A DNA stretch of 46,319 nt from Oxalobacteraceae bacterium OM1. GTDB lineage: Bacteria; Pseudomonadota; Gammaproteobacteria; Burkholderiales; Burkholderiaceae_D. The notes under the pieces were generated by a model. It saw only the letters and a list, made by a program, of their open reading frames with translations, was not told the origin of the DNA and made no database searches. The position numbers and the translations under genes are program-made. Where the stretch lies: positions 1 through 46,319 of the forward strand of contig SPQI01000477.1 of the NCBI GenBank assembly GCA_004570315.1. The letters are read 5' to 3'. The first letter of the stretch is position 1, and the number at the start of each line of letters is the position of its first letter. Positions 7,892 through 32,193 of the stretch are shown here, piece after piece.

Positions 7892-9058
7892 ATGGCACGC
7901 AAAGTGCAATACGAAGGGGTGTATGCGCGAGACGCATCGATTCTCATTAGTTTTAACTGGGAAGGACGGCGCCACCGCGAACGCATTGCGATGCCACCGA
8001 CTGCTGCCACTCTGCGTGCAGCATCAAGGGCTCGGCACGACATCGTCAAAGCAATCGCTGTGGGCAGCTTCAGTGTCGATGACTTCGCCCGCTATTTCCC
8101 GCATTCCAAGTTTCTCAAATCGAACGTTAACCCTGTTGGCAGCACCGTTGCATGCATTGCTGAGACATGGCTGACTATTGCCGGGCAGAGGCTAGCCGAG
8201 ACCACAGTTAAGGAATACCGCAACACCATCAATAAGCACCTGCTCCCCAGATTCGGGCACCGCGAGATTGCATCGATCCGTTTTGAAGAGCTCCTCCTTC
8301 ATCTTGCAAGTAAAAACCTTAGGAATGCCAGAACATTTAACAATGTACTGACGCCTATACGCGCCGTCTGGGCGTACGCTGTAAAAACTGGGAAGGCACC
8401 GGTCGACATTCTGGCCCAAATGCCGACACGCAAGCACCAGAAAGCCAAGCCGGACCCGCTTGACCTGCATGAAATCGACTTGGTGCTGCGCCATCTCGCA
8501 ACGCTTAATGATGACCAATGGCTAAATTATTTTACGTTCGCCTTATTTACTGGCTTGCGGCCATCTGAACTGATTGCATTGAAATGGGAAGACGTAGACT
8601 TTGACCGCAAACAGGTATTGGTTGAACGCGCGCGCGTGCGCGGAATCGATAAAGATGCCAAGACGCATCGTTCGAGGAATGTCGACCTGCAGTCGCGTGC
8701 ATTGTCAGCATTAACCCGGCAAATGAAGCACACATTCCTGGCGGGCGGTTTCGTATTCCAAAATCCAAGAACTAACGAACGCCTATTCGATACGGGTCCG
8801 CCTGTCCAGGACGGTTGGCGGCCGACGTTGCGGGCGGTCGGACTAAGGGGCCGCGATGCGAAACAGACGCGGCACACGTTCGCCACCATGTGTCTGCACG
8901 CGGGCATGAATCCGGCATATGTTGCTCGTCAAATGGGTCACAGCGACGCTCGGATGTTCTTTGAGGTGTACGCGAAGTGGATTGACGGACAGGCGAATGA
9001 GCTGGAGATTTCGAAGCTTGACGCACTAGTCGGCACTTCGGACATGGCGCCGTTGTGA
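7892..9058 (+). CDS. Tyrosine recombinase / site-specific integrase (388 aa)
   Basis: The start at 7892 (MARKVQYEG) has AGGAG at 7-base spacing; the upstream in-frame ATG at 7841 lacks one. The N-terminus resembles the arm-binding (DUF3596-type) domain, residues ~80-175 the core-binding SAM-like domain, and ~190-370 the catalytic domain. Box I is FTGLRPSELIALKWEDVDF with Arg near 223. Box II is K-Q-T-R-H-T-F-A-T with Arg near 327, then MGHSDA, then FFEVYAKW with the nucleophile Tyr. The first box-II histidine position is Lys here. All other catalytic residues are present, so it looks intact. No tRNA target is seen beside it. Confidence 0.93.
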   Translation: MARKVQYEGVYARDASILISFNWEGRRHRERIAMPPTAATLRAASRARHDIVKAIAVGSFSVDDFARYFPHSKFLKSNVNPVGSTVACIAETWLTIAGQRLAETTVKEYRNTINKHLLPRFGHREIASIRFEELLLHLASKNLRNARTFNNVLTPIRAVWAYAVKTGKAPVDILAQMPTRKHQKAKPDPLDLHEIDLVLRHLATLNDDQWLNYFTFALFTGLRPSELIALKWEDVDFDRKQVLVERARVRGIDKDAKTHRSRNVDLQSRALSALTRQMKHTFLAGGFVFQNPRTNERLFDTGPPVQDGWRPTLRAVGLRGRDAKQTRHTFATMCLHAGMNPAYVARQMGHSDARMFFEVYAKWIDGQANELEISKLDALVGTSDMAPL

Positions 9059-9072
9059 CACTTCTTTGTGAC
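9053..9072. repeat. TTGTGAC repeats at the integrase 3' end
   Basis: TTGTGAC at 9053-9059 overlaps the integrase stop codon, and TTTGTGAC follows at 9065-9072. They are the reverse complement of the TCACAAAC motif repeated upstream of the gene. Confidence 0.4.
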
Positions 9073-9103
9073 CAAAACCAAAATTTAATGGAAATAGCGG
9101 ACA

Positions 9104-9631
9104 GTGGCATGCGGGTTTGCGCCGACTAATTCCATAGTATTTCCTAATGGACAGTTTCGATTCCTGTCGGCGGGACCAACGCAGTCCAGAACATCCAACC
9201 ACTTGCAGTGCGTCCCGTCGGTGCTCGTCGTATCGAACGTCTTGCTGGCGCCCGCCATCCCGCAGGAAGTCACTGGGTGGCTGCTGTGTATTGGAGCGGC
9301 ACTTTCGCTAGTCTATCTGTGCTCGGTCCGCGGGCCGCAACGGTGGCGCGAAAACAAGCTGCCCGTGATGGACTGGGTTTGGTACATCGCCCTGTCTTAT
9401 CTCGCATACGCACTAGCGTTGATCTCAGGCATCGGTGTGCTGCGCAGCGCCGCCTGGGCAATGCCAGCCATCGGTGGGACCATGGTGTTCATGCTCATCA
9501 TCGGCATCCGCAACGCCTGGGATCTGGCCGTCTGGCTCCCCTTGCAGGAACGCAATCCGGAGCGACAGCCAACTGCTGCCGAGACCACGGCGCCCCGCCA
9601 GTCGGAGTCGGCTCGGACCATTGAACGTTGA
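9104..9631 (+). CDS. Hypothetical membrane protein (up to 175 aa)
   Basis: Three good hydrophobic helices support this frame: VTGWLLCIGAALSLVYLCSV, VWYIALSYLAYALALISGIGVL and AIGGTMVFMLIIGIRNAWDLAVW. A polar Glu/Arg/Thr-rich tail follows. The frame opens at a GTG with no clear ribosome binding site; the first ~45 residues look unlike protein, so translation may begin later, near residue 40. No family is recognised. It lies 46 bases after the integrase. Confidence 0.45.
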   Translation: MACGFAPTNSIVFPNGQFRFLSAGPTQSRTSNHLQCVPSVLVVSNVLLAPAIPQEVTGWLLCIGAALSLVYLCSVRGPQRWRENKLPVMDWVWYIALSYLAYALALISGIGVLRSAAWAMPAIGGTMVFMLIIGIRNAWDLAVWLPLQERNPERQPTAAETTAPRQSESARTIER

Positions 9632-24580: not shown

Positions 24581-25087
24581 TCAGTGTTCTCCGGACTCGT
24601 GATGACATGCGACGACGTCGCTTGAGGCTGGCGAGTCAGGGTCTCATTGAGACGCCGTTGTCTCGCCATTGCACCCGTCTGCAAACACGGTCGATCGGAC
24701 GGCTGCACTGCAGAAGCACAATCCGGCGCTGACGAAGCGATGACAGGCGGTGTCCAGATAGTATGGGATCCGGCGTGCGCGGATAACCGCGTATTCCTGA
24801 GAATCATCATTCCAAAACTTGAGAATACGTCTTGGAGATGTTCATGGCCGCGGCCACGTATTTCGCGATATCGCTGCGAAGATCCGCTTGGGTCAACAAT
24901 GTGCGGTAGTTAAACGGAGGAAAATGTGATTGGCGTGCCAGCGCGTCAAACAGTTTGTGATGTGCCTGCCAAGGCACGCGCCATACGGCTTTGCCCCCAA
25001 TCAGACGCGAAATTAGCGCCTACACTGAACGTACGTCGAAGTTGCTCACATGCCGAACGGATACGGTAATGCGTACGGAGGTCTTGA
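24581..25087. other. Divergent region between the channel gene and the AraC pair
   Basis: About 500 bases hold no complete gene with a normal start. The leftward protein-like frame at 24807-25019 is the only coding signal. The region should also hold the promoters of the channel gene and of the AraC operon; I see no convincing -35/-10 pair. Confidence 0.4.
24807..25019 (-). pseudogene. Possible gene remnant or small gene with atypical start (70 codons)
   Basis: Leftward from a TAG at 25022-25020 to a TGA at 24809-24807, an open frame reads like real protein. It contains WQAHHKLFDALARQSHF, then PPFNYRTLLTQADLRSDIAK, and ends in MNISKTYSQVLE. The only common start near the front is a GTG giving 57 residues, without a ribosome binding site. 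It could be a truncated 3' end or a small gene. I cannot name a family. Confidence 0.3.
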
Positions 25088-26065
25088 ATGGGTTCACTCG
25101 TATCCATGTCACGTTGGTCCACTGACAATGTGGTGCCGGAACATCGATTGGATTACTACGCGGGCGCCCTTAGCCAAGCGATCATCCCCATCTACCTGTC
25201 TCATCGCCCCGATGGTCCATTCGATGCCCATATTGAAGTGGCTTCGGTCGGCACTCTGTCTTTCATCCGCCAACAAGGCAGTGCGCATCGCTGTTTCACC
25301 GACACCGCGAGCATTGCGCGCAATCAGGAAGATAGCTTCCATCTCGTCCTTAACCGTGCCAGCTACTGGCAGGTCGAGCATTTGGGGCGCAAGCGCTGCG
25401 CTCCAGGCGACGCAGTATTGGTCGATGCACGTTATCCGGTCGATTTCGACTCGCCAACAGGGTACGACTATCTTCACGTCAAATTGCCGGCGGGCTGGCT
25501 GCGTCAGTGGGTTCCGGCACCCGGCTCCCTGGCCGGCATCCACTTTCAAGCCGCGTCGGGCTGGGCGCGCGCATTGACCGCATTTGTCGCGAGCCTGACG
25601 CCCGATTTCCTGCGTAGCCCGCCCCTACCCTTGTCCATGATTGTCGATCAACTCGGCTCGTTGCTGGCACTTGCAGCGCACGATCGAGCGACCTTGCCAC
25701 CGAAAACCCCACCCGACCGGGTCGGACAAATTAAAGACGTTATGTGGCAAATGTGCAGCTCGCCAACGCTCACTGCCGCGGACGTCGCCATTGCGGTTGG
25801 CATGCCGCTGCGCTCCTTCCACCGGTGCTTTACCGCCAGTGGAATGACCTTCGGACGTACGCTAACCGACATGCGCTACACCTTGGCAACACGGATGCTG
25901 GAGTCCCCTTTGCACAAGCGCCTGACAATAGGAGAAATCGCCCACCGCGCCGGCTTCTGCGACGCCTCGCACTTGAGTGCCACTGTACGTATACGCAGCG
26001 GAAAAACACCCACACAAATACGGCGGGACGCCATAGGAAACGACGCTGCGGCCAACGAATCATGA
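25088..26065 (+). CDS. AraC-family regulator (325 aa)
   Basis: ATG 25088 follows CGGAGG at good spacing. Residues ~1-185 match the AraC_binding_2 type sensor domain: STDNVVPEHRLDYYAGALS, HLVLNRASYWQVEHLGRK, CAPGDAVLVDARYPVDFD and LHVKLPAGWL. The C-terminal helix-turn-helix pair (~225-315) contains TAADVAIAVGMPLRSFHRCF and IGEIAHRAGFCDASHLSATVR. Its stop overlaps the start of a weakly similar paralogue. It is the first gene of a rightward group leading to a GMC oxidoreductase, and is the likely activator of that group. Confidence 0.88.
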   Translation: MGSLVSMSRWSTDNVVPEHRLDYYAGALSQAIIPIYLSHRPDGPFDAHIEVASVGTLSFIRQQGSAHRCFTDTASIARNQEDSFHLVLNRASYWQVEHLGRKRCAPGDAVLVDARYPVDFDSPTGYDYLHVKLPAGWLRQWVPAPGSLAGIHFQAASGWARALTAFVASLTPDFLRSPPLPLSMIVDQLGSLLALAAHDRATLPPKTPPDRVGQIKDVMWQMCSSPTLTAADVAIAVGMPLRSFHRCFTASGMTFGRTLTDMRYTLATRMLESPLHKRLTIGEIAHRAGFCDASHLSATVRIRSGKTPTQIRRDAIGNDAAANES

Positions 26066-26988
26066 GCAACGTAAATCACCTTTCGGTCATCCACTGGTCA
26101 ACTGATGACGTCGCCCCGAGCGAGCGCTCGGAAAGCGTAATTGCGGCCCTGGACAGAGCCATCGTGCCGGTCGGAATGGAAATCAAGGACACGGCCAAAT
26201 TCGCGTTCCATATGGATTCGATTGAACTCGCCGACGGCTGCGTGCTGCTTCACCAGAAGGGCTCGGCACACCGAACATATCGACGAAATCGGGAACTGGC
26301 ACGCAGCGAAGGCCGGACCTTCCACTTCATGCTCAACCTGGCGTCTGATTTGCTGATCGAGCATTGCGGCAGAAATCGCGTACGCGCTGGAGACGCAATT
26401 CTGATCGATTCCGAACATATGCTGGAACTCACCATTCCCAATCACTTTGAAGTCATACACATCAAGATGAGCGAAGAATGGTTGCATCGTTGGCTCGCCC
26501 CAGTAAGTGCGCTGATCGGTCAGCGCGTATCATCGACTCATGGCGTCGACCGCGCGCTGACCACATTCGCCGCACAGCTGGCACCGACAACGCTTGCCTG
26601 CGCAGCACTGAATCCAGCGACACTTGCACAGCAATTCGCAACCATGCTTGCCATGGTAGGCAATGAACACGGCGGCAAGCGTTCTGGCATCGTGGCACAT
26701 TGCGCCGATACCTTCGACCTGGCTATCGCAATCATGAAACTGCATAGCGCAGAGCCACTTACCATTTGCGCACTGGCAGAAGAACTGAAAATCCCCGAAG
26801 CACAAATTGAAGCCGCACTCGCATCTAACGGCCACACATTTTCAAGCGCACTCGCAGCACTCCGTCTGGACGCAGTGGCGCGTATGCGCAACGCACCTAA
26901 CTTGAACCACTTGCCGCTCGCCGAGTTATACGCCCGAGCCGGCTTCACGCGTCCCCGCGATTCCGAACCGCCAATACTCGCAGGGTGA
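26062..26988 (+). CDS. Degenerate AraC-family paralogue (308 aa)
   Basis: ATG 26062 overlaps the previous stop (ATGA). The sensor half aligns with the first regulator: HWSTDDVAPSERSESVIAALD, FHFMLNLASDLLIEHCGRNR, RAGDAILIDSEHMLELT and IHIKMSEEWL. The DNA-binding half is poorly kept: LTICALAEELKIPEAQIEAAL matches the first helix pair, but the second ends early at LYARAGFTRPRDSEPP without the conserved final helix. It may bind DNA weakly, act as a partner or anti-activator of the first protein, or be decaying. Confidence 0.75.
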   Translation: MSNVNHLSVIHWSTDDVAPSERSESVIAALDRAIVPVGMEIKDTAKFAFHMDSIELADGCVLLHQKGSAHRTYRRNRELARSEGRTFHFMLNLASDLLIEHCGRNRVRAGDAILIDSEHMLELTIPNHFEVIHIKMSEEWLHRWLAPVSALIGQRVSSTHGVDRALTTFAAQLAPTTLACAALNPATLAQQFATMLAMVGNEHGGKRSGIVAHCADTFDLAIAIMKLHSAEPLTICALAEELKIPEAQIEAALASNGHTFSSALAALRLDAVARMRNAPNLNHLPLAELYARAGFTRPRDSEPPILAG

Positions 26989-27329
26989 CGCTGCTGCTTC
27001 CGGGAGGCGCTGCTTCACTTGCGTCTGCTGCGCCTCGTCCGACAGTACCCGCCCTTATCCTCGCTCCCTTTTCATTCAGCCGTGCAGTCCTTGATTGCAG
27101 CCGGCGCAGCTTTGCCTGCGCCTGATGCTGCTTATCGGCCGGAATCCCTTCTCCCCCATCGCCTTCCAATGCGTTCGCATATGGAGAGCGATGGCACACG
27201 CATCACAAAGAGTTTGGATCACTGGCACGGTAAAACAAATCGCCCTCCATGGGTGACGTACATTGGTTTACAAGCACTGCGGTGCGGCTTTCATCCCATC
27301 AGATTTTGCAGACCAATGACGGAGCCAGT
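26989..27329. other. Gap without a gene before the GMC operon
   Basis: No protein-like frame is evident on either strand. The stretch separates the AraC pair from the small coupled gene at 27330 and is the natural place for the catabolic promoter and regulator sites. I find no strong dyad or -35/-10 pair. Confidence 0.4.
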
Positions 27330-27533
27330 ATGAATGCCAATGGTTTTATCGGCGCGTTTTACATCGGAGGCCAGGTCCTCGCGGCCATGACGGCGCAAAC
27401 GCTGCTGCCTGATTGTCTTGACAGTTGTGAGCCTTCTTCGTCGTACGCAGCCCAGGCAAGCGCTGCAACGCCGGCTTCATCGGATGCACTTCAAACCTTC
27501 AACGCAATTATCGACCTCATGGAGCTGGTATGA
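27330..27533 (+). CDS. Small hypothetical protein coupled to the GMC gene (67 aa)
   Basis: ATG 27330 follows CGGAG at 6-base spacing, and its TGA overlaps the GMC start (ATGA, 27530-27533). The sequence opens MNANGFIGAFYIGGQVLAAM, a moderately hydrophobic segment that could be a membrane anchor or an amphipathic helix. Two Cys follow (PDCLDSCEP), then a Ser/Ala-rich linker and a final helix LQTFNAIIDLMELV. It resembles no family I know. Coupling implies 1:1 production with the oxidoreductase and a possible subunit or chaperone role. Confidence 0.65.
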   Translation: MNANGFIGAFYIGGQVLAAMTAQTLLPDCLDSCEPSSSYAAQASAATPASSDALQTFNAIIDLMELV

Positions 27534-29062
27534 GATACGACTTTATCGTGTGCGGGGCCGGGTCTGCCGGGAGCGTGGTCGCGGCGCGCTTGGCAAGCAA
27601 TCCTGAAGTAAACGTTCTGCTGATTGAAGCTGGCGGCAGCGACACGCAACCGGAGGTCATGGAGCCTGCACTCTGGCCTCACAATCTCGACTCGGAACGC
27701 GACTGGAGCTTTACTGCTGCACCGAACCCCCATTTAAATGGTCGCGCCATTCCTCTGAACATGGGCAAGGTACTCGGCGGAGGATCGAGCATTAACGTGA
27801 TGCTGTGGGCGCGGGGCCACAAAAACGACTGGGAAGATTTTGCGGCGGAATCGAGCGACCCGGCATGGGGTTATGAATCGGTTCTGGAGATCTACAAGCG
27901 AATCGAGGACTGGCAAGGCACACCGGATCCCCGCCGGCGCGGCCGAAGCGGACGGGTCCATGTCCAGCCGGCGTCCCAGCCAAAACCAGTTGCGCTAGCG
28001 CTGCTGGATGCGGCTGCCGATCTCGACATACCGACGTTCGACAGTCCCAACGGCGCCATGATGGAAGGACGCGGTGGCGCTGCAATCAATGAACTCATCA
28101 TTCGTGCAGGCCGACGTTTCTCGATATACCGGGCTTATGTCGCTCCCCTCCTGGGCGCACCAAATCTTACGGTCCTAACCAATACTCTGGTCACACGTTT
28201 GGTGCTGCGCGGCCGAACTGCAATCGGCGTCGAGACGCTGCAGGAAGGCGGGCGCCGCACCGTGTATTACGCCGACCGGGAAGTCGTGCTTTCCATGGGC
28301 GCAGTACACACTCCGAAAGTGCTCATGCAATCGGGCATTGGCCCCGAAGGCGAGCTGACGACACATGGTATCGAAGTGATCCAGCACCTGCCCGGGGTGG
28401 GCCGCAACCATCAGGATCATGTCGCCTTTGGCTGCGTCTTCGAATTCCACGAACCTCAGGCCATTGGCTCTGGCGGGTCGGAAGCGACGCTGTACTGGAG
28501 CAGTCAAGCTGGCATGCGTCTCCCGGACATGTTCCATTGCCAGCTCGAGTTTCCCGTGCCCAGTGCGGAGACCGCGCTTCGCGGCGTTCCAGAGCACGGC
28601 TGGACCATGTTTGCCGGTCTTGCGCACCCTGAAAGCCGCGGCTCCATCCACTTGAGCGGTCCGAATCCTCGCGACCCGGTTCGCATTGAGGCCAATACGC
28701 TTTCGCATCCGGCGGATATGGGGGCAGCCCTTGCCAACATCGAGTTATGCCGAGAACTCGGCCACAGCCGGGCTTTCGCAAATCTCGTGAAACAAGAGTC
28801 TCTGCCGGGGCCGCTACCGAAGGAGCAAATGATGAATTACGCCCGTGATGCCGCTGTCACCTACTGGCATCAGTCTTGTACGGCGAAGATGGGTCGGGAT
28901 GCCATGTCGGTCGTAGACAGCAGTCTCTCGGTCTACGGCATCCAAGGACTCCGGATTGCTGACGCGTCGATCATGCCGCATGTCACCAGTGGCAACACCA
29001 TGGCGCCGTGCGTCGTCATCGGCGAGAGAGCTGCCGACATGCTTATCCAAGCGCATCTGTAA
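27530..29062 (+). CDS. GMC-family flavin oxidoreductase (510 aa)
   Basis: The FAD-binding motif CGAGSAGSVVAARLA lies at residues 8-22. The GMC signature 1 region is GKVLGGGSSINVMLWARG with NDWEDFA (~79-105), and signature 2 is in MGAVHTPKVLMQSGIGP. The C-terminal active site has YWHQSCTAKMG (His ~446) and SGNTMAPCVVIGERAAD, which supplies the second catalytic position. It is closest in outline to choline dehydrogenase or alcohol oxidase-type members that oxidise primary alcohols or aldehydes. There is no signal peptide. A peroxidase-type gene follows two genes later, which suits an oxidase that releases H2O2. The substrate is unknown. Confidence 0.92.
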   Translation: MRYDFIVCGAGSAGSVVAARLASNPEVNVLLIEAGGSDTQPEVMEPALWPHNLDSERDWSFTAAPNPHLNGRAIPLNMGKVLGGGSSINVMLWARGHKNDWEDFAAESSDPAWGYESVLEIYKRIEDWQGTPDPRRRGRSGRVHVQPASQPKPVALALLDAAADLDIPTFDSPNGAMMEGRGGAAINELIIRAGRRFSIYRAYVAPLLGAPNLTVLTNTLVTRLVLRGRTAIGVETLQEGGRRTVYYADREVVLSMGAVHTPKVLMQSGIGPEGELTTHGIEVIQHLPGVGRNHQDHVAFGCVFEFHEPQAIGSGGSEATLYWSSQAGMRLPDMFHCQLEFPVPSAETALRGVPEHGWTMFAGLAHPESRGSIHLSGPNPRDPVRIEANTLSHPADMGAALANIELCRELGHSRAFANLVKQESLPGPLPKEQMMNYARDAAVTYWHQSCTAKMGRDAMSVVDSSLSVYGIQGLRIADASIMPHVTSGNTMAPCVVIGERAADMLIQAHL

Positions 29063-29078
29063 ACACATGGAGGAAGAC

Positions 29079-29795
29079 ATGGATGTCTTTATTCAAACCG
29101 CTGCTCACACCAGGAGCAACACGCTCAAAGCGGCGCCGTTGGAGCCACCGTTATCGGGCCGAAGTGTATTCGAACGTGTAAGGGAGCGCCTGCGGGCTGC
29201 CAGTCGGCGCCTGCACGCACCGGAGCCGGATGATCTGTTTTGCAAGGCGCATGCCGATCCATTGCGTCCTTTGCATAGTGTTGAAACTCATGCCAACGAG
29301 TCGCCAGACAGTCGGCATAAACGCGAATCTGTTGCACCGGTGTCGATCGATGAATCGCCCGCTGGCCCCACCACGCAAATGGATGACACCAAGACATCCA
29401 ATATTGCACACATCGACGATTTGATCGTGGCCGGTCCGCTGACCGTTGGTAGCACCTGCGCGCACCACCTGTGCCCGGTCACGGGCCCGCTATGGATCGG
29501 CGTACTAGCGCAAGGCGATGCCGAATCGGCGAGTTTGTCGAGATACGCATCGCTTGCTGACTCGGTCATGCGCAAGCCACAGACACAGGAAGAGGCGCTG
29601 AATCAGCTTGCTGACCTGCTGGTCGAGCATCTGCACCTGGCTGGTGTTGCCCTGATCATGCAGGCCGACCATCAATGCATGCAATGGCGCGGCATGACCG
29701 AACACGAGACTCACATCACCAGTGTGGTAATGCGCGGCGCCTTCCTTCATCAACCCGCCCTGCGAACGCAGTTTCTGATGGTGATCGTTGCCTGA
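29079..29795 (+). CDS. Divergent GTP cyclohydrolase I (FolE) homologue (238 aa)
   Basis: ATG 29079 follows GGAGG; an ATG at 29067 is an alternative. Residues ~112-236 are a FolE T-fold domain. STCAHH (Cys127, His129, His130) and HQC (His198, Cys200) supply the zinc ligands and base, QTQEE (Gln170, Glu171) binds the pterin ring, and WRG keeps Arg204. Differences are Ala128 where FolE has Glu in CEHH, and LSRYAS where FolE has LSK-x-x-R. The first ~110 residues lack the usual FolE N-terminal helices and are polar and low in complexity. It may make a pterin for a neighbouring enzyme, or have another cyclohydrolase role. It lies 16 bases after the GMC gene. Confidence 0.8.
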   Translation: MDVFIQTAAHTRSNTLKAAPLEPPLSGRSVFERVRERLRAASRRLHAPEPDDLFCKAHADPLRPLHSVETHANESPDSRHKRESVAPVSIDESPAGPTTQMDDTKTSNIAHIDDLIVAGPLTVGSTCAHHLCPVTGPLWIGVLAQGDAESASLSRYASLADSVMRKPQTQEEALNQLADLLVEHLHLAGVALIMQADHQCMQWRGMTEHETHITSVVMRGAFLHQPALRTQFLMVIVA

Positions 29796-29887
29796 CGCCC
29801 CATCAAACCTGACGGCATACCGATAGCAACGGATTGGCCATGCCGCCTTTATCTTGCTGCACCAACGTCTTATCGAAGAGGACAATC

Positions 29888-30868
29888 ATGGACGCTACAC
29901 CTCATACTCCGCCTGTCGTTCAAGTCAGTACAGCAGCTCCAAGTGCCACGCTCCCCGCGGAGATTGTTGCCGCACTGAAGACGAATGCCGGCAATCCCCC
30001 CGGCGTGCGAGCCAGCTTTGCCAAAGGCCAGTGCGTCACCGGGACCTATACGCCGTCCGACAAAGCGGCGACTGTGACACGGTCCAGGAGTTTCACGCAC
30101 CCATCGAAGGTGCTTGGCCGCTTTTCGGTCGGCGGCGGAAGCCCGAAAGTGGCCGATAGCAACCGCACCGTACTGCGCGGCTTCAGTCTGCGCATTGGAC
30201 AGGGGCCTGATGTTTCAAACGTCTTGTTCGAGAACGCTCCTGTGCATTTCGCGAAGTCGCAGGCGCAAATGCTTGCGTTCCTGGAGGCGCGCACACCGGG
30301 ACCGGATGGGAAGCCGGACCCGGCCAAGGTCAAAGCCTTTTCGGATGCAAATCCCGAAACGCTGAATCAGGCTCATTACGTCGCAGCGCATCCCGTGCCG
30401 GGAAGCTTTGCCGGGATCACGTATTTCGCCGTGCACGCGTTCCCGGCAACAAACGCAAAAGGAGCACACCGCTTCGTCAAGCTTCAGATCGTGCCCATTG
30501 ATGGTCCGGTGACTCTGAGCGACGAAGACGCCAAGCATAAGCCGGACGATTTCCTCTTCCAGGATTTGAACGAACGGCTGGCGCACGGCGGTCTGCGGTT
30601 CAAAATCGTCGCAATACTGGACCGTGCAGGTGATCCCGTCATGGACGTGACGACTCGCTGGCCGGACGAAGACAGCCGCGAATCGGTAACGCTCGGCACC
30701 GTGCATATTCAGGCGCAGAGCGATAACGCGCCGTGCGACGCCACCATCTTCAACCCTGCAACCCTGGCCGATGGAATCGGGGCGCCTCCGGACGAGATTT
30801 TCGCTGCGCGCAGCACCGCGTATGCGGTATCACTCGCCCGTCGGCAATCGGAAAACGCCAAGCGCTGA
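29888..30868 (+). CDS. Catalase-related peroxidase, SrpA-like (326 aa)
   Basis: ATG 29888 follows GAGGACA. The sequence follows the small catalase-related peroxidases: HPGVRASFAKGQCVTG-like opening (here PPGVRASFAKGQCVTGTYTP), GRFSVGGGSPKVADSNRTVLRGFSLRI, FAKSQAQMLAFL, and a C-terminal helix ARSTAYAVSLARRQ carrying the likely haem Tyr. There is no export signal. Such enzymes use H2O2 or organic peroxides with haem. Placement after a GMC oxidoreductase and the FolE homologue suggests it removes or uses peroxide made by the oxidoreductase. Confidence 0.88.
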   Translation: MDATPHTPPVVQVSTAAPSATLPAEIVAALKTNAGNPPGVRASFAKGQCVTGTYTPSDKAATVTRSRSFTHPSKVLGRFSVGGGSPKVADSNRTVLRGFSLRIGQGPDVSNVLFENAPVHFAKSQAQMLAFLEARTPGPDGKPDPAKVKAFSDANPETLNQAHYVAAHPVPGSFAGITYFAVHAFPATNAKGAHRFVKLQIVPIDGPVTLSDEDAKHKPDDFLFQDLNERLAHGGLRFKIVAILDRAGDPVMDVTTRWPDEDSRESVTLGTVHIQAQSDNAPCDATIFNPATLADGIGAPPDEIFAARSTAYAVSLARRQSENAKR

Positions 30869-31037
30869 AACAGCATGGTCCCCGCCCGCCTGACGCGGCG
30901 CGGGGCCGTAGCGTGGAACTTCAACGGGCCCTCTGATTTTGTTTCGGAGTCGGGATGCATTGCAACCGTGCCGGACATTGCAGTGAGCGGACCGGATGCG
31001 GAGCGAGCAACCGCTCCCGACAGCCAAGGAGATCGTC

Positions 31038-31139
31038 ATGAAATTTCAAACCTGCCTTCGTGCGTTTGCCAGGACGGCGACTGTGTTCATTCTGCTGCTG
31101 ACCGTGACGACTGCGGCGATGACGTCCTTGATTACGTGA
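31038..31139 (+). CDS. Small membrane peptide (33 aa)
   Basis: ATG 31038 follows AAGGAG at 8-base spacing. The peptide opens MKFQTCLRAFART and continues with a single hydrophobic helix (TVFILLLTVTTAAM) before a TGA. A basic N-terminus and one membrane span are typical of small bacterial membrane proteins. It is 115 bases before the LysR gene on the same strand. Function unknown; the ribosome binding site and composition are the evidence. Confidence 0.5.
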   Translation: MKFQTCLRAFARTATVFILLLTVTTAAMTSLIT

Positions 31140-31254
31140 GCCGAGTATCGCTCGAATCAATCTCGCCTACGGCGCAAGGAAACGGCGCAGTCCGCCATCA
31201 CGAATTTGGAAACGTCGTCTCAGAATTCGCCATGCAGCCAAGAAGAGGACTGAA

Positions 31255-32193
31255 ATGGATCGATTGCAGTCAATGCGCGTGTTTGCGAAGGTGGTAGAAC
31301 TTGGTAGCTTTGCACGCGCCGCTGCCTCCCTGAATCTATCAGCGCCGGCAGTTACCCGATTGGTGGCAGACCTCGAGGACCATCTGCAGACGCGCCTTCT
31401 TCACCGCACGACCCGTCGTCTTTCCCTGACTGAAACTGGAACGGAGTATCTCGGGAGGGTGCATCGCATTCTCCACCAGATTGACGATGCAGAGGCTGTT
31501 GCGTCTGCTCATTCGGATAAGGCGACGGGCACACTACGGATGTATTGCCATCCAGCGTTCCAAAAGCAATTAGCGAAGCTGATTGCCGAGTTTCCGCTCC
31601 GTTATCCGGACGTGGTGGTGGACGTCACCGTCTCCGACGAGACACCTGACTTGGTCGCCGAGGCGTTTGATGTGGGCATTGTCGTCAACGACCAGAAGGT
31701 TGGGGCACGGATGATCACGCGCCAGCTGGCAAAATCGTCGCTTATCCTGACTGCGTCACCTGGCTACATCGCCCGCCATGGTGTACCCAATTCACTGGAG
31801 GAGATCAGGGAACACGTTTGCCTTAGCTTCACCTATTCGCAGCTATTCCATGGCTGCGCGGACAAGGCAGGCGTGACATCGAATTTCGAGACACCGATCC
31901 GAAGCCGAACCATTTCGAATAGCGGCGACTTCTTGCGTGAATGCGCGCTGGCCGGCATGGGCTTGATGTATCGGCCGTCCTTCGCGGTCATGGACGATCT
32001 GCAAAACGGGCGGCTCGTGCGCGTGCTGTCAGGGGAATGCCTGGGCATGCTGGGCGTCTCGGTGGTCTATCCAAGCCGCCTATTGGTGCCGGCAAAGGTG
32101 CGCGCGCTCATTAGAGTTCTCATTGAAGAATTTCCTGCGCCCGAAATCGACCCATGGTTGCAGAGCAGTTCCGCTATGCCCGACGCTTCTTAG
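31255..32193 (+). CDS. LysR-family transcriptional regulator (312 aa)
   Basis: MDRLQSMRVFAKVVELGSFA opens a standard LysR winged helix-turn-helix (1-60; AAASLNLSAPAVTRLVADLEDHLQ, then LLHRTTRRLSLTETG). The effector domain follows (~90-295). ATG 31255 has AAGAGGA upstream. No divergent partner is present: the upstream gene is the peroxidase on the same strand. It may act on the GMC-FolE-peroxidase group or on a distant target. Confidence 0.9.
   Translation: MDRLQSMRVFAKVVELGSFARAAASLNLSAPAVTRLVADLEDHLQTRLLHRTTRRLSLTETGTEYLGRVHRILHQIDDAEAVASAHSDKATGTLRMYCHPAFQKQLAKLIAEFPLRYPDVVVDVTVSDETPDLVAEAFDVGIVVNDQKVGARMITRQLAKSSLILTASPGYIARHGVPNSLEEIREHVCLSFTYSQLFHGCADKAGVTSNFETPIRSRTISNSGDFLRECALAGMGLMYRPSFAVMDDLQNGRLVRVLSGECLGMLGVSVVYPSRLLVPAKVRALIRVLIEEFPAPEIDPWLQSSSAMPDAS

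Follow-up and report, generated by a model that had tools for sequence, protein, structure and literature searches.

A putative local oxidoreductase regulon with a repeated 38-bp site in Oxalobacteraceae bacterium OM1

The distal histidine of haem catalases is the acid-base catalyst and is described as essential (PMC9687031). GTP cyclohydrolase I of Thermus thermophilus holds the triphosphate by means of Lys134, Arg137, Arg183 and Arg64 (PMC4005822), in the human enzyme Arg216 contacts the beta and gamma phosphates (PMC7750480), and a Pseudomonas folE gene is reported to be light-inducible under LitR (PMC9758184). Here, we describe a locus in which relatives of these proteins stand together, on a contig of Oxalobacteraceae bacterium OM1 (SPQI01000477.1) that was analysed over its full 46,319 nucleotides and is called the window below. 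Six rightward open reading frames (ORFs), between positions 25088 and 30868, encode two AraC-type proteins (AraC1 and AraC2), a putative small protein, a GMC oxidoreductase, a FolE-like protein and an SrpA-like protein. Among the papers listed by a literature search, none seemed from its title and the opening of its abstract to deal with this gene set. An earlier note on this DNA had reported six rightward genes with two ATGA overlaps, and these are indeed present, the overlaps lying at 26062-26065 (AraC1 and AraC2) and 27530-27533 (small ORF and GMC). The short gaps that it saw throughout are not: AraC2 and the small ORF lie 341 bp apart, and the SrpA gene begins 92 bp past the end of the FolE-like gene. 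In view of the 341-bp gap, a division into two units is the better reading: AraC1-AraC2 on the one hand, small ORF-GMC-FolE-SrpA on the other.

A repeated site ahead of two gene units

Both units are preceded by a copy of a 38-bp repeat, which is absent from the earlier note. The repeat came from a search of positions 24600-31400 (6.8 kb), and its two copies, identical at 29 of 38 positions, lie 116 and 100 bp ahead of the first gene of the respective unit. The pair scores 20, and since the best of 1000 dinucleotide shuffles of two intergenic stretches scored 17, none of the shuffles reached this value. When the 4.7-Mb draft genome was scanned with the pattern, allowing up to three mismatches, the two copies themselves were the only matches, and a backward control gave none. 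The simplest reading of the pair would be an operator of the adjacent AraC proteins, for the regulators as well as for the enzyme unit, and this rare shared site is the best evidence for what we predict to be one local regulon.

The reading that we prefer, with a probability of roughly 0.55, is a locally controlled oxidoreductase regulon of two transcription units with the GMC enzyme as its catalytic centre. AraC1 would bind the 38-bp site ahead of its own gene and the second copy ahead of small ORF-GMC-FolE-SrpA. Since AraC2 keeps the ligand-binding domain and has lost the DNA-binding half, it would probably be a ligand-sensing partner or a brake of AraC1. The inducer would probably be an alcohol, an aldehyde or an amine-derived compound that is oxidised by the GMC flavoenzyme. 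The SrpA-like protein, as it lacks the catalase histidine, would be a catalase-fold protein other than an ordinary catalase, and the FolE-like protein would have been recruited from a subfamily that usually stands beside light-response genes; its zinc/Glu pocket may hold a pterin, a guanine or a flavin-like ring, or the protein may be decaying. Gene order, the pair of sites and how rare it is, the lost residues and the patterns of subfamily and neighbourhood are observed, and these roles, as well as the substrate, are what we infer. The features are listed in Table 1.

Table 1. Genes and putative operator copies of the locus (window positions; domain names are from Pfam)
Feature	Position	Strand	Characteristics
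Putative operator copy 1, 38 bp	24934..24971	+	Upstream of AraC1; GTGCCAG-N5-CAAAC-N2-TTTGTGATG-N4-TGCCA
AraC1	25088..26065	+	AraC_binding_2; intact AraC helix-turn-helix domain (HTH_18)
AraC2	26062..26988	+	AraC_binding_2; helix-turn-helix domain undetected; ATGA overlap with AraC1
Putative operator copy 2, 38 bp, inverted	27192..27229	-	Inside the 341-bp gap, 5' of small ORF and GMC
Small ORF, 67 aa, putative	27330..27533	+	ATGA overlap with GMC
GMC oxidoreductase	27530..29062	+	GMC_oxred_N and GMC_oxred_C; His447/Asn489 catalytic-type pair present
FolE-like	29079..29795 (or from 29067)	+	GTP_cyclohydroI over residues 110-240 only; zinc, base and ribose residues present; Arg64- and Arg137-type triphosphate contacts and N-terminal RVAKM motif gone
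SrpA-type catalase-fold protein	29888..30868	+	Catalase; Phe44 at distal His place; C-terminal Arg/Tyr region present

AraC pair and GMC oxidoreductase

AraC1 has a double helix-turn-helix, and its HTH_18 score of 52.5 bits exceeds the cut-off (33.6 bits). AraC2 gave no helix-turn-helix match in Pfam at E <= 0.1, and its second recognition helix is missing in the alignment. AraC1 relatives are rare (4 of 399 genomes of the order at E <= 1e-40, its own genome counted), and tandem AraC sets occur in Variovorax sp. Sphag1AA (locus L018, likewise with an ATGA overlap), in Cupriavidus metallidurans (L116) and, as three copies, in genome G297 (L125). AraC1 is 49% and 45% identical to the first copies of L018 and L116, which score 53.0 and 57.4 bits with HTH_18; the second copies score 34.9 and 27.0 bits, and the three G297 copies 68.1, 63.9 and 35.9 bits, so that the last copy is the weakest there. 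This asymmetry suggests that the second AraC member may sense a ligand without binding DNA. The tandem AraC genes of C. metallidurans and G297 lie near genes that, named by eye, are cytochrome-oxidase-like and SCO-like.

The GMC protein looks intact: the FAD-binding N-domain and the C-domain are both found by Pfam, and the alignment places His447 and Asn489 at what we take to be the His-Asn catalytic pair of choline oxidase. Solved GMC relatives carry both oxidase and dehydrogenase names, and those named oxidases make H2O2. Of the GMC, SrpA and FolE proteins, only the GMC protein retains the expected catalytic residues.

To describe its neighbourhoods, flanking stretches were compared for the best 80 of 156 relatives in the GTDB contig set, which are 60-74% identical to the window protein over nearly the full length; eight of the 80 loci are shortened by contig ends, and the neighbour counts are therefore lower bounds. 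Common neighbours are genes for an alpha/beta hydrolase (52 loci), LysR (43), SDR (40) and an HTH_17-GAF regulator (35), and the window matches these loci in its LysR genes but not in the other three. The HTH_17 (excisionase-type) plus GAF regulator occurs near GMC in L005, L006, L008, L024 and 31 further loci, with the domains verified on L005 and L008. FolE beside GMC in other genomes had been set beforehand as the neighbour test of the proposed system. In the flanks taken, neither a FolE match nor a small ORF match was found at any of the 80 loci, SrpA was near GMC at two (L018 and L020, both Variovorax), and AraC1 or an AraC pair at one. On these counts, a conserved four-gene system was rejected. 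By the neighbour test, FolE and GMC do not stand together at the loci of other genomes. The sign of a coherent unit is the 38-bp site, shared by both units and present twice in the genome.

The small ORF is an unproven gene. It has no match in Pfam or NCBIfam, and its lone match in 299 other genomes of the order (E = 9.7e-4) was rejected as a homologue, having an internal stop. Its codon signal is weak, with a GC content at third codon positions (GC3) of 0.574 against a GC content of 0.549, and its sole support is a GGAG-type ribosome-binding site together with the ATGA overlap. Positions 31038-31139, between the SrpA gene and a LysR gene, hold an ORF for a hydrophobic peptide of 33 residues, with AAGGAG as its ribosome-binding site. 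GC content of the cluster is 57-59%, similar to the adjoining 2-kb bins on either side. Four terminator-like sites were found in 24600-31400, all on the opposite strand, with 6.4 expected, and Rfam and tRNA scans of the window gave no match.

Altered SrpA-type and FolE-like proteins

The alignment of the SrpA-type protein with catalases begins at residue 22 or 41, and Phe44 stands in place of the essential distal histidine. As this histidine is absent, a normal catalase reaction is unlikely, which removes the ground for the idea that the peroxidase handles peroxide. Asn116, the distal Asn, is present, and AARSTAYAVSLARR aligns with the C-terminal Arg/Tyr region of catalases that carries the haem tyrosine. 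The close group consists of the window protein and seven relatives of 53-62% identity, of which L018 and L020 contribute two copies each, and Rhizobium (L129), L160 and the pieces of a split gene in L161 one each. This split gene (genome G706, 8490-9442, minus strand) runs over two frames, through disruption of the gene or an error in sequencing. Phe occupies the distal position in the window protein and all seven relatives, the distal Asn is Ser in three of the seven, and all eight proteins share a (N/S)-A-P-V-H-F motif whose His replaces the Phe of other SrpA sequences. Further out, the distal residue is His in two and Gly in three of five plasmid SrpA-type sequences, and His in four and Gly in six of ten SrpA loci of the order (37-41% identical); the six with Gly indicate that some peroxidase-type proteins of the catalase family may lack catalase function. 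The Gly lies in an RRSGAKG-type motif (L136, L139-L142 and L144). Close SrpA relatives are few: at E <= 1e-60 they were found in 4 of 101 Variovorax genomes, and in two of these the stretch around the SrpA gene gave no GMC match. The window protein thus belongs to a catalase-fold subfamily that lacks the essential His across three genera.

The FolE-like gene has two candidate ATG starts, the second of which, at 29079, has a better ribosome-binding site than that at 29067. Another FolE gene of the source genome encodes a protein that shares 34% identity with the window protein across the core. The 29 best family loci encode relatives that are 36-44% identical, with matches that start at 14-81 and end at 238 or 240, and by sequence the window protein is a divergent member of this FolE subfamily of its own bacterial family. 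At 26 of the 29 loci a gene for a BLUF blue-light receptor lies nearby on the same strand. A LitR-like MerR gene is present at nine of these 26 as well as at the remaining three loci, so that a light-response neighbour is present at all 29 (neighbours were scored by phmmer, and Pfam BLUF and MerR_1 verified on examples). The subfamily loci with BLUF or LitR-like genes are L085-L113, L115, L145, L146, L150 and L152, and in L150 the FolE and BLUF genes overlap by 4 bp. In the Variovorax genomes of L018 and L020, the subfamily FolE gene adjoins BLUF on a contig other than that of the GMC locus. Among 189 matching plasmid records, four FolE places were examined: BLUF stands at the first, a LitR-like gene (phmmer) at another, and neither at the other two, one of which has an annotated MerR gene at a greater distance. 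The 46-kb window contains no BLUF or LitR-like ORF. A literature search listed no paper whose title or opening of the abstract seemed to deal with the FolE-BLUF pairing. A FolE subfamily that mostly adjoins a blue-light receptor gene is a feature of this bacterial family.

The alteration of FolE that had been noted before is confirmed by the alignment with relatives, in which LSKYAR has become LSRYAS in the window protein and the N-terminal RVAKM is gone. A frameshifted N-terminus was rejected, as an RVAKM-type motif is found in none of the three forward frames of 29000-29500. Residue equivalences with the T. thermophilus enzyme, set by motif spacing, place the zinc ligands Cys131, His134 and Cys204 at Cys108, His111 and Cys179, and Glu175, Ser158, His133 and His202, for base, ribose and acid-base contacts, at Glu150, Ser133, His110 and His177. 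Among the four triphosphate positions, the Lys134-type residue is Arg159 (a conservative change), the Arg137-type residue is Ser162, the Arg183-type residue is kept as Arg208, and the Arg64-type residue is absent. We place Arg64 in the RVAK motif here and take human Arg216 to be the Arg183-type residue. The NCBIfam FolE model TIGR00063 scores 74.5 bits, below its cut-off of 181.6, and the Pfam domain passes its own cut-off. These losses in triphosphate binding cast doubt on an ordinary GTP cyclohydrolase I activity, and with it on the proposal that FolE supplies a pterin from GTP; with the zinc pocket retained and the full grip on GTP lost, the protein probably differs from ordinary GTP cyclohydrolases I.

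Competing explanations and likeness to known systems

Several results weigh against a local regulon. The stretches that were shuffled were chosen once the 38-bp repeat was known, so that the shuffle count is post hoc, and the pattern of the genome scan was derived from the two copies themselves. No counterpart of the site was found at the AraC pairs and possible targets of Variovorax, Cupriavidus and G297 (five region pairs, none above shuffles), nor when ten loci were scanned with the pattern and seven regions aligned to the site, so that the site is tied to AraC1 by position. A search for sigma-70-like promoters in 24600-31400 found none, with 2.5 expected from shuffles. The source is a 4.7-Mb draft of 524 contigs with a contamination of 2.15. 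A search of 14 further genomes of the genus gave no match at E <= 1e-80 for a SLAC1 gene in the flank, and a LysR gene in the flank has matches of only 52-57%; for these reasons the stretch is not proved to be native. No close SrpA match at E <= 1e-70 was found in 293 other genomes of the family, and the full gene combination has been seen in one draft genome so far, so that the FolE link has no support from co-occurrence.

It is possible, though clearly less probable than the regulon, that the locus is a chance assembly of an AraC-controlled GMC gene with decaying FolE-like and SrpA-like passengers that have no joint function. The counts of FolE and SrpA near GMC and the missing SrpA match in the family are in line with this, as are the eroded AraC2, the FolE-like N-terminus without its conserved motif, and the GC3 of the five long cluster genes (0.60-0.67), below that of four of the five neighbour genes measured (0.70-0.78; the LysR neighbour has 0.65). 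However, all frames are open, the zinc and base residues of FolE are in register, and the genes are tightly spaced 3' of a rare repeated site. The SrpA change, common to all seven close relatives in two other genera, is not fresh decay.

It is unlikely that the 38-bp copies, rather than being operators, are terminal inverted repeats left behind by a mobile element with the AraC pair as cargo. They are inverted, start with the same sequence at their outer ends, and bracket exactly the AraC pair (24934-27229), but only the two AraC ORFs lie between them and no transposase-like gene was recognised there. Moreover, no target-site duplication was seen by eye at the outer flanks, the genome holds no further copies, and the distances to the two start codons are plausible for promoters. 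An equally improbable, more elaborate version of the regulon is an inducible flavoenzyme system, in which a FolE barrel taken off GTP would carry or remodel a pterin or flavin-like ring for the GMC enzyme, a catalase-fold haem protein with a rebuilt distal pocket (Phe for His, and a new His nearby in sequence) would act on an organic hydroperoxide or another substrate, and the second member of the AraC pair would only sense. Very unlikely is the pathway of the earlier note, in which SrpA would clear the H2O2 formed by a GMC oxidase and FolE would produce a pterin cofactor: the gene order and the several solved GMC relatives named oxidases fit it, and the FolE changes lower the likelihood of cyclohydrolase activity without excluding it, but SrpA lacks the distal His, FolE lacks two triphosphate contacts, and the same set was found nowhere else in the loci and genomes searched.

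The locus is real and compact, and its genes are probably controlled together as a local regulon. Three features lend themselves to direct tests: this compact two-site regulon with an AraC partner short of a DNA-binding domain, the catalase-fold subfamily without its essential His, and the FolE-like protein with a zinc pocket and an incomplete grip on GTP. A common function is best argued from the rare site pair and from the AraC/SrpA/GMC core that is common with Variovorax, with FolE as an odd addition.

As to known systems, the NCBIfam FeaR model is the best one for AraC1 (64.6 bits) and the only one for AraC2 (25.4 bits), yet both proteins score far under its 199-bit cut-off and are therefore not FeaR; a literature search for a published FeaR site motif gave nothing usable. 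The SrpA-type peroxidases (3e4w; the Synechococcus pANL protein) resemble the window SrpA in a catalase fold by sequence, with 34% identity to the pANL protein, and differ from it at the distal His and in the (N/S)-A-P-V-H-F motif. FolE genes beside BLUF or LitR-like genes supply the best relatives of the window FolE, which differs from them in the lost RVAKM-type motif and in the Lys-to-Arg and Arg-to-Ser changes at triphosphate positions, and the light-induced folE of Pseudomonas resembles this group in its light context. The common GMC loci share with the window a GMC protein and a nearby LysR gene. Closest is the Variovorax locus L018, in which AraC-AraC, SrpA, GMC and SrpA stand together. 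It differs in SrpA copies on both sides of GMC, in an alpha/beta hydrolase and a third AraC gene on the opposite strand, and in the absence of FolE and of the 38-bp site from the locus, but it shares with the window an ATGA-overlapping AraC pair, an SrpA protein that is 60% identical and a GMC protein that is 67% identical, all on the same strand.

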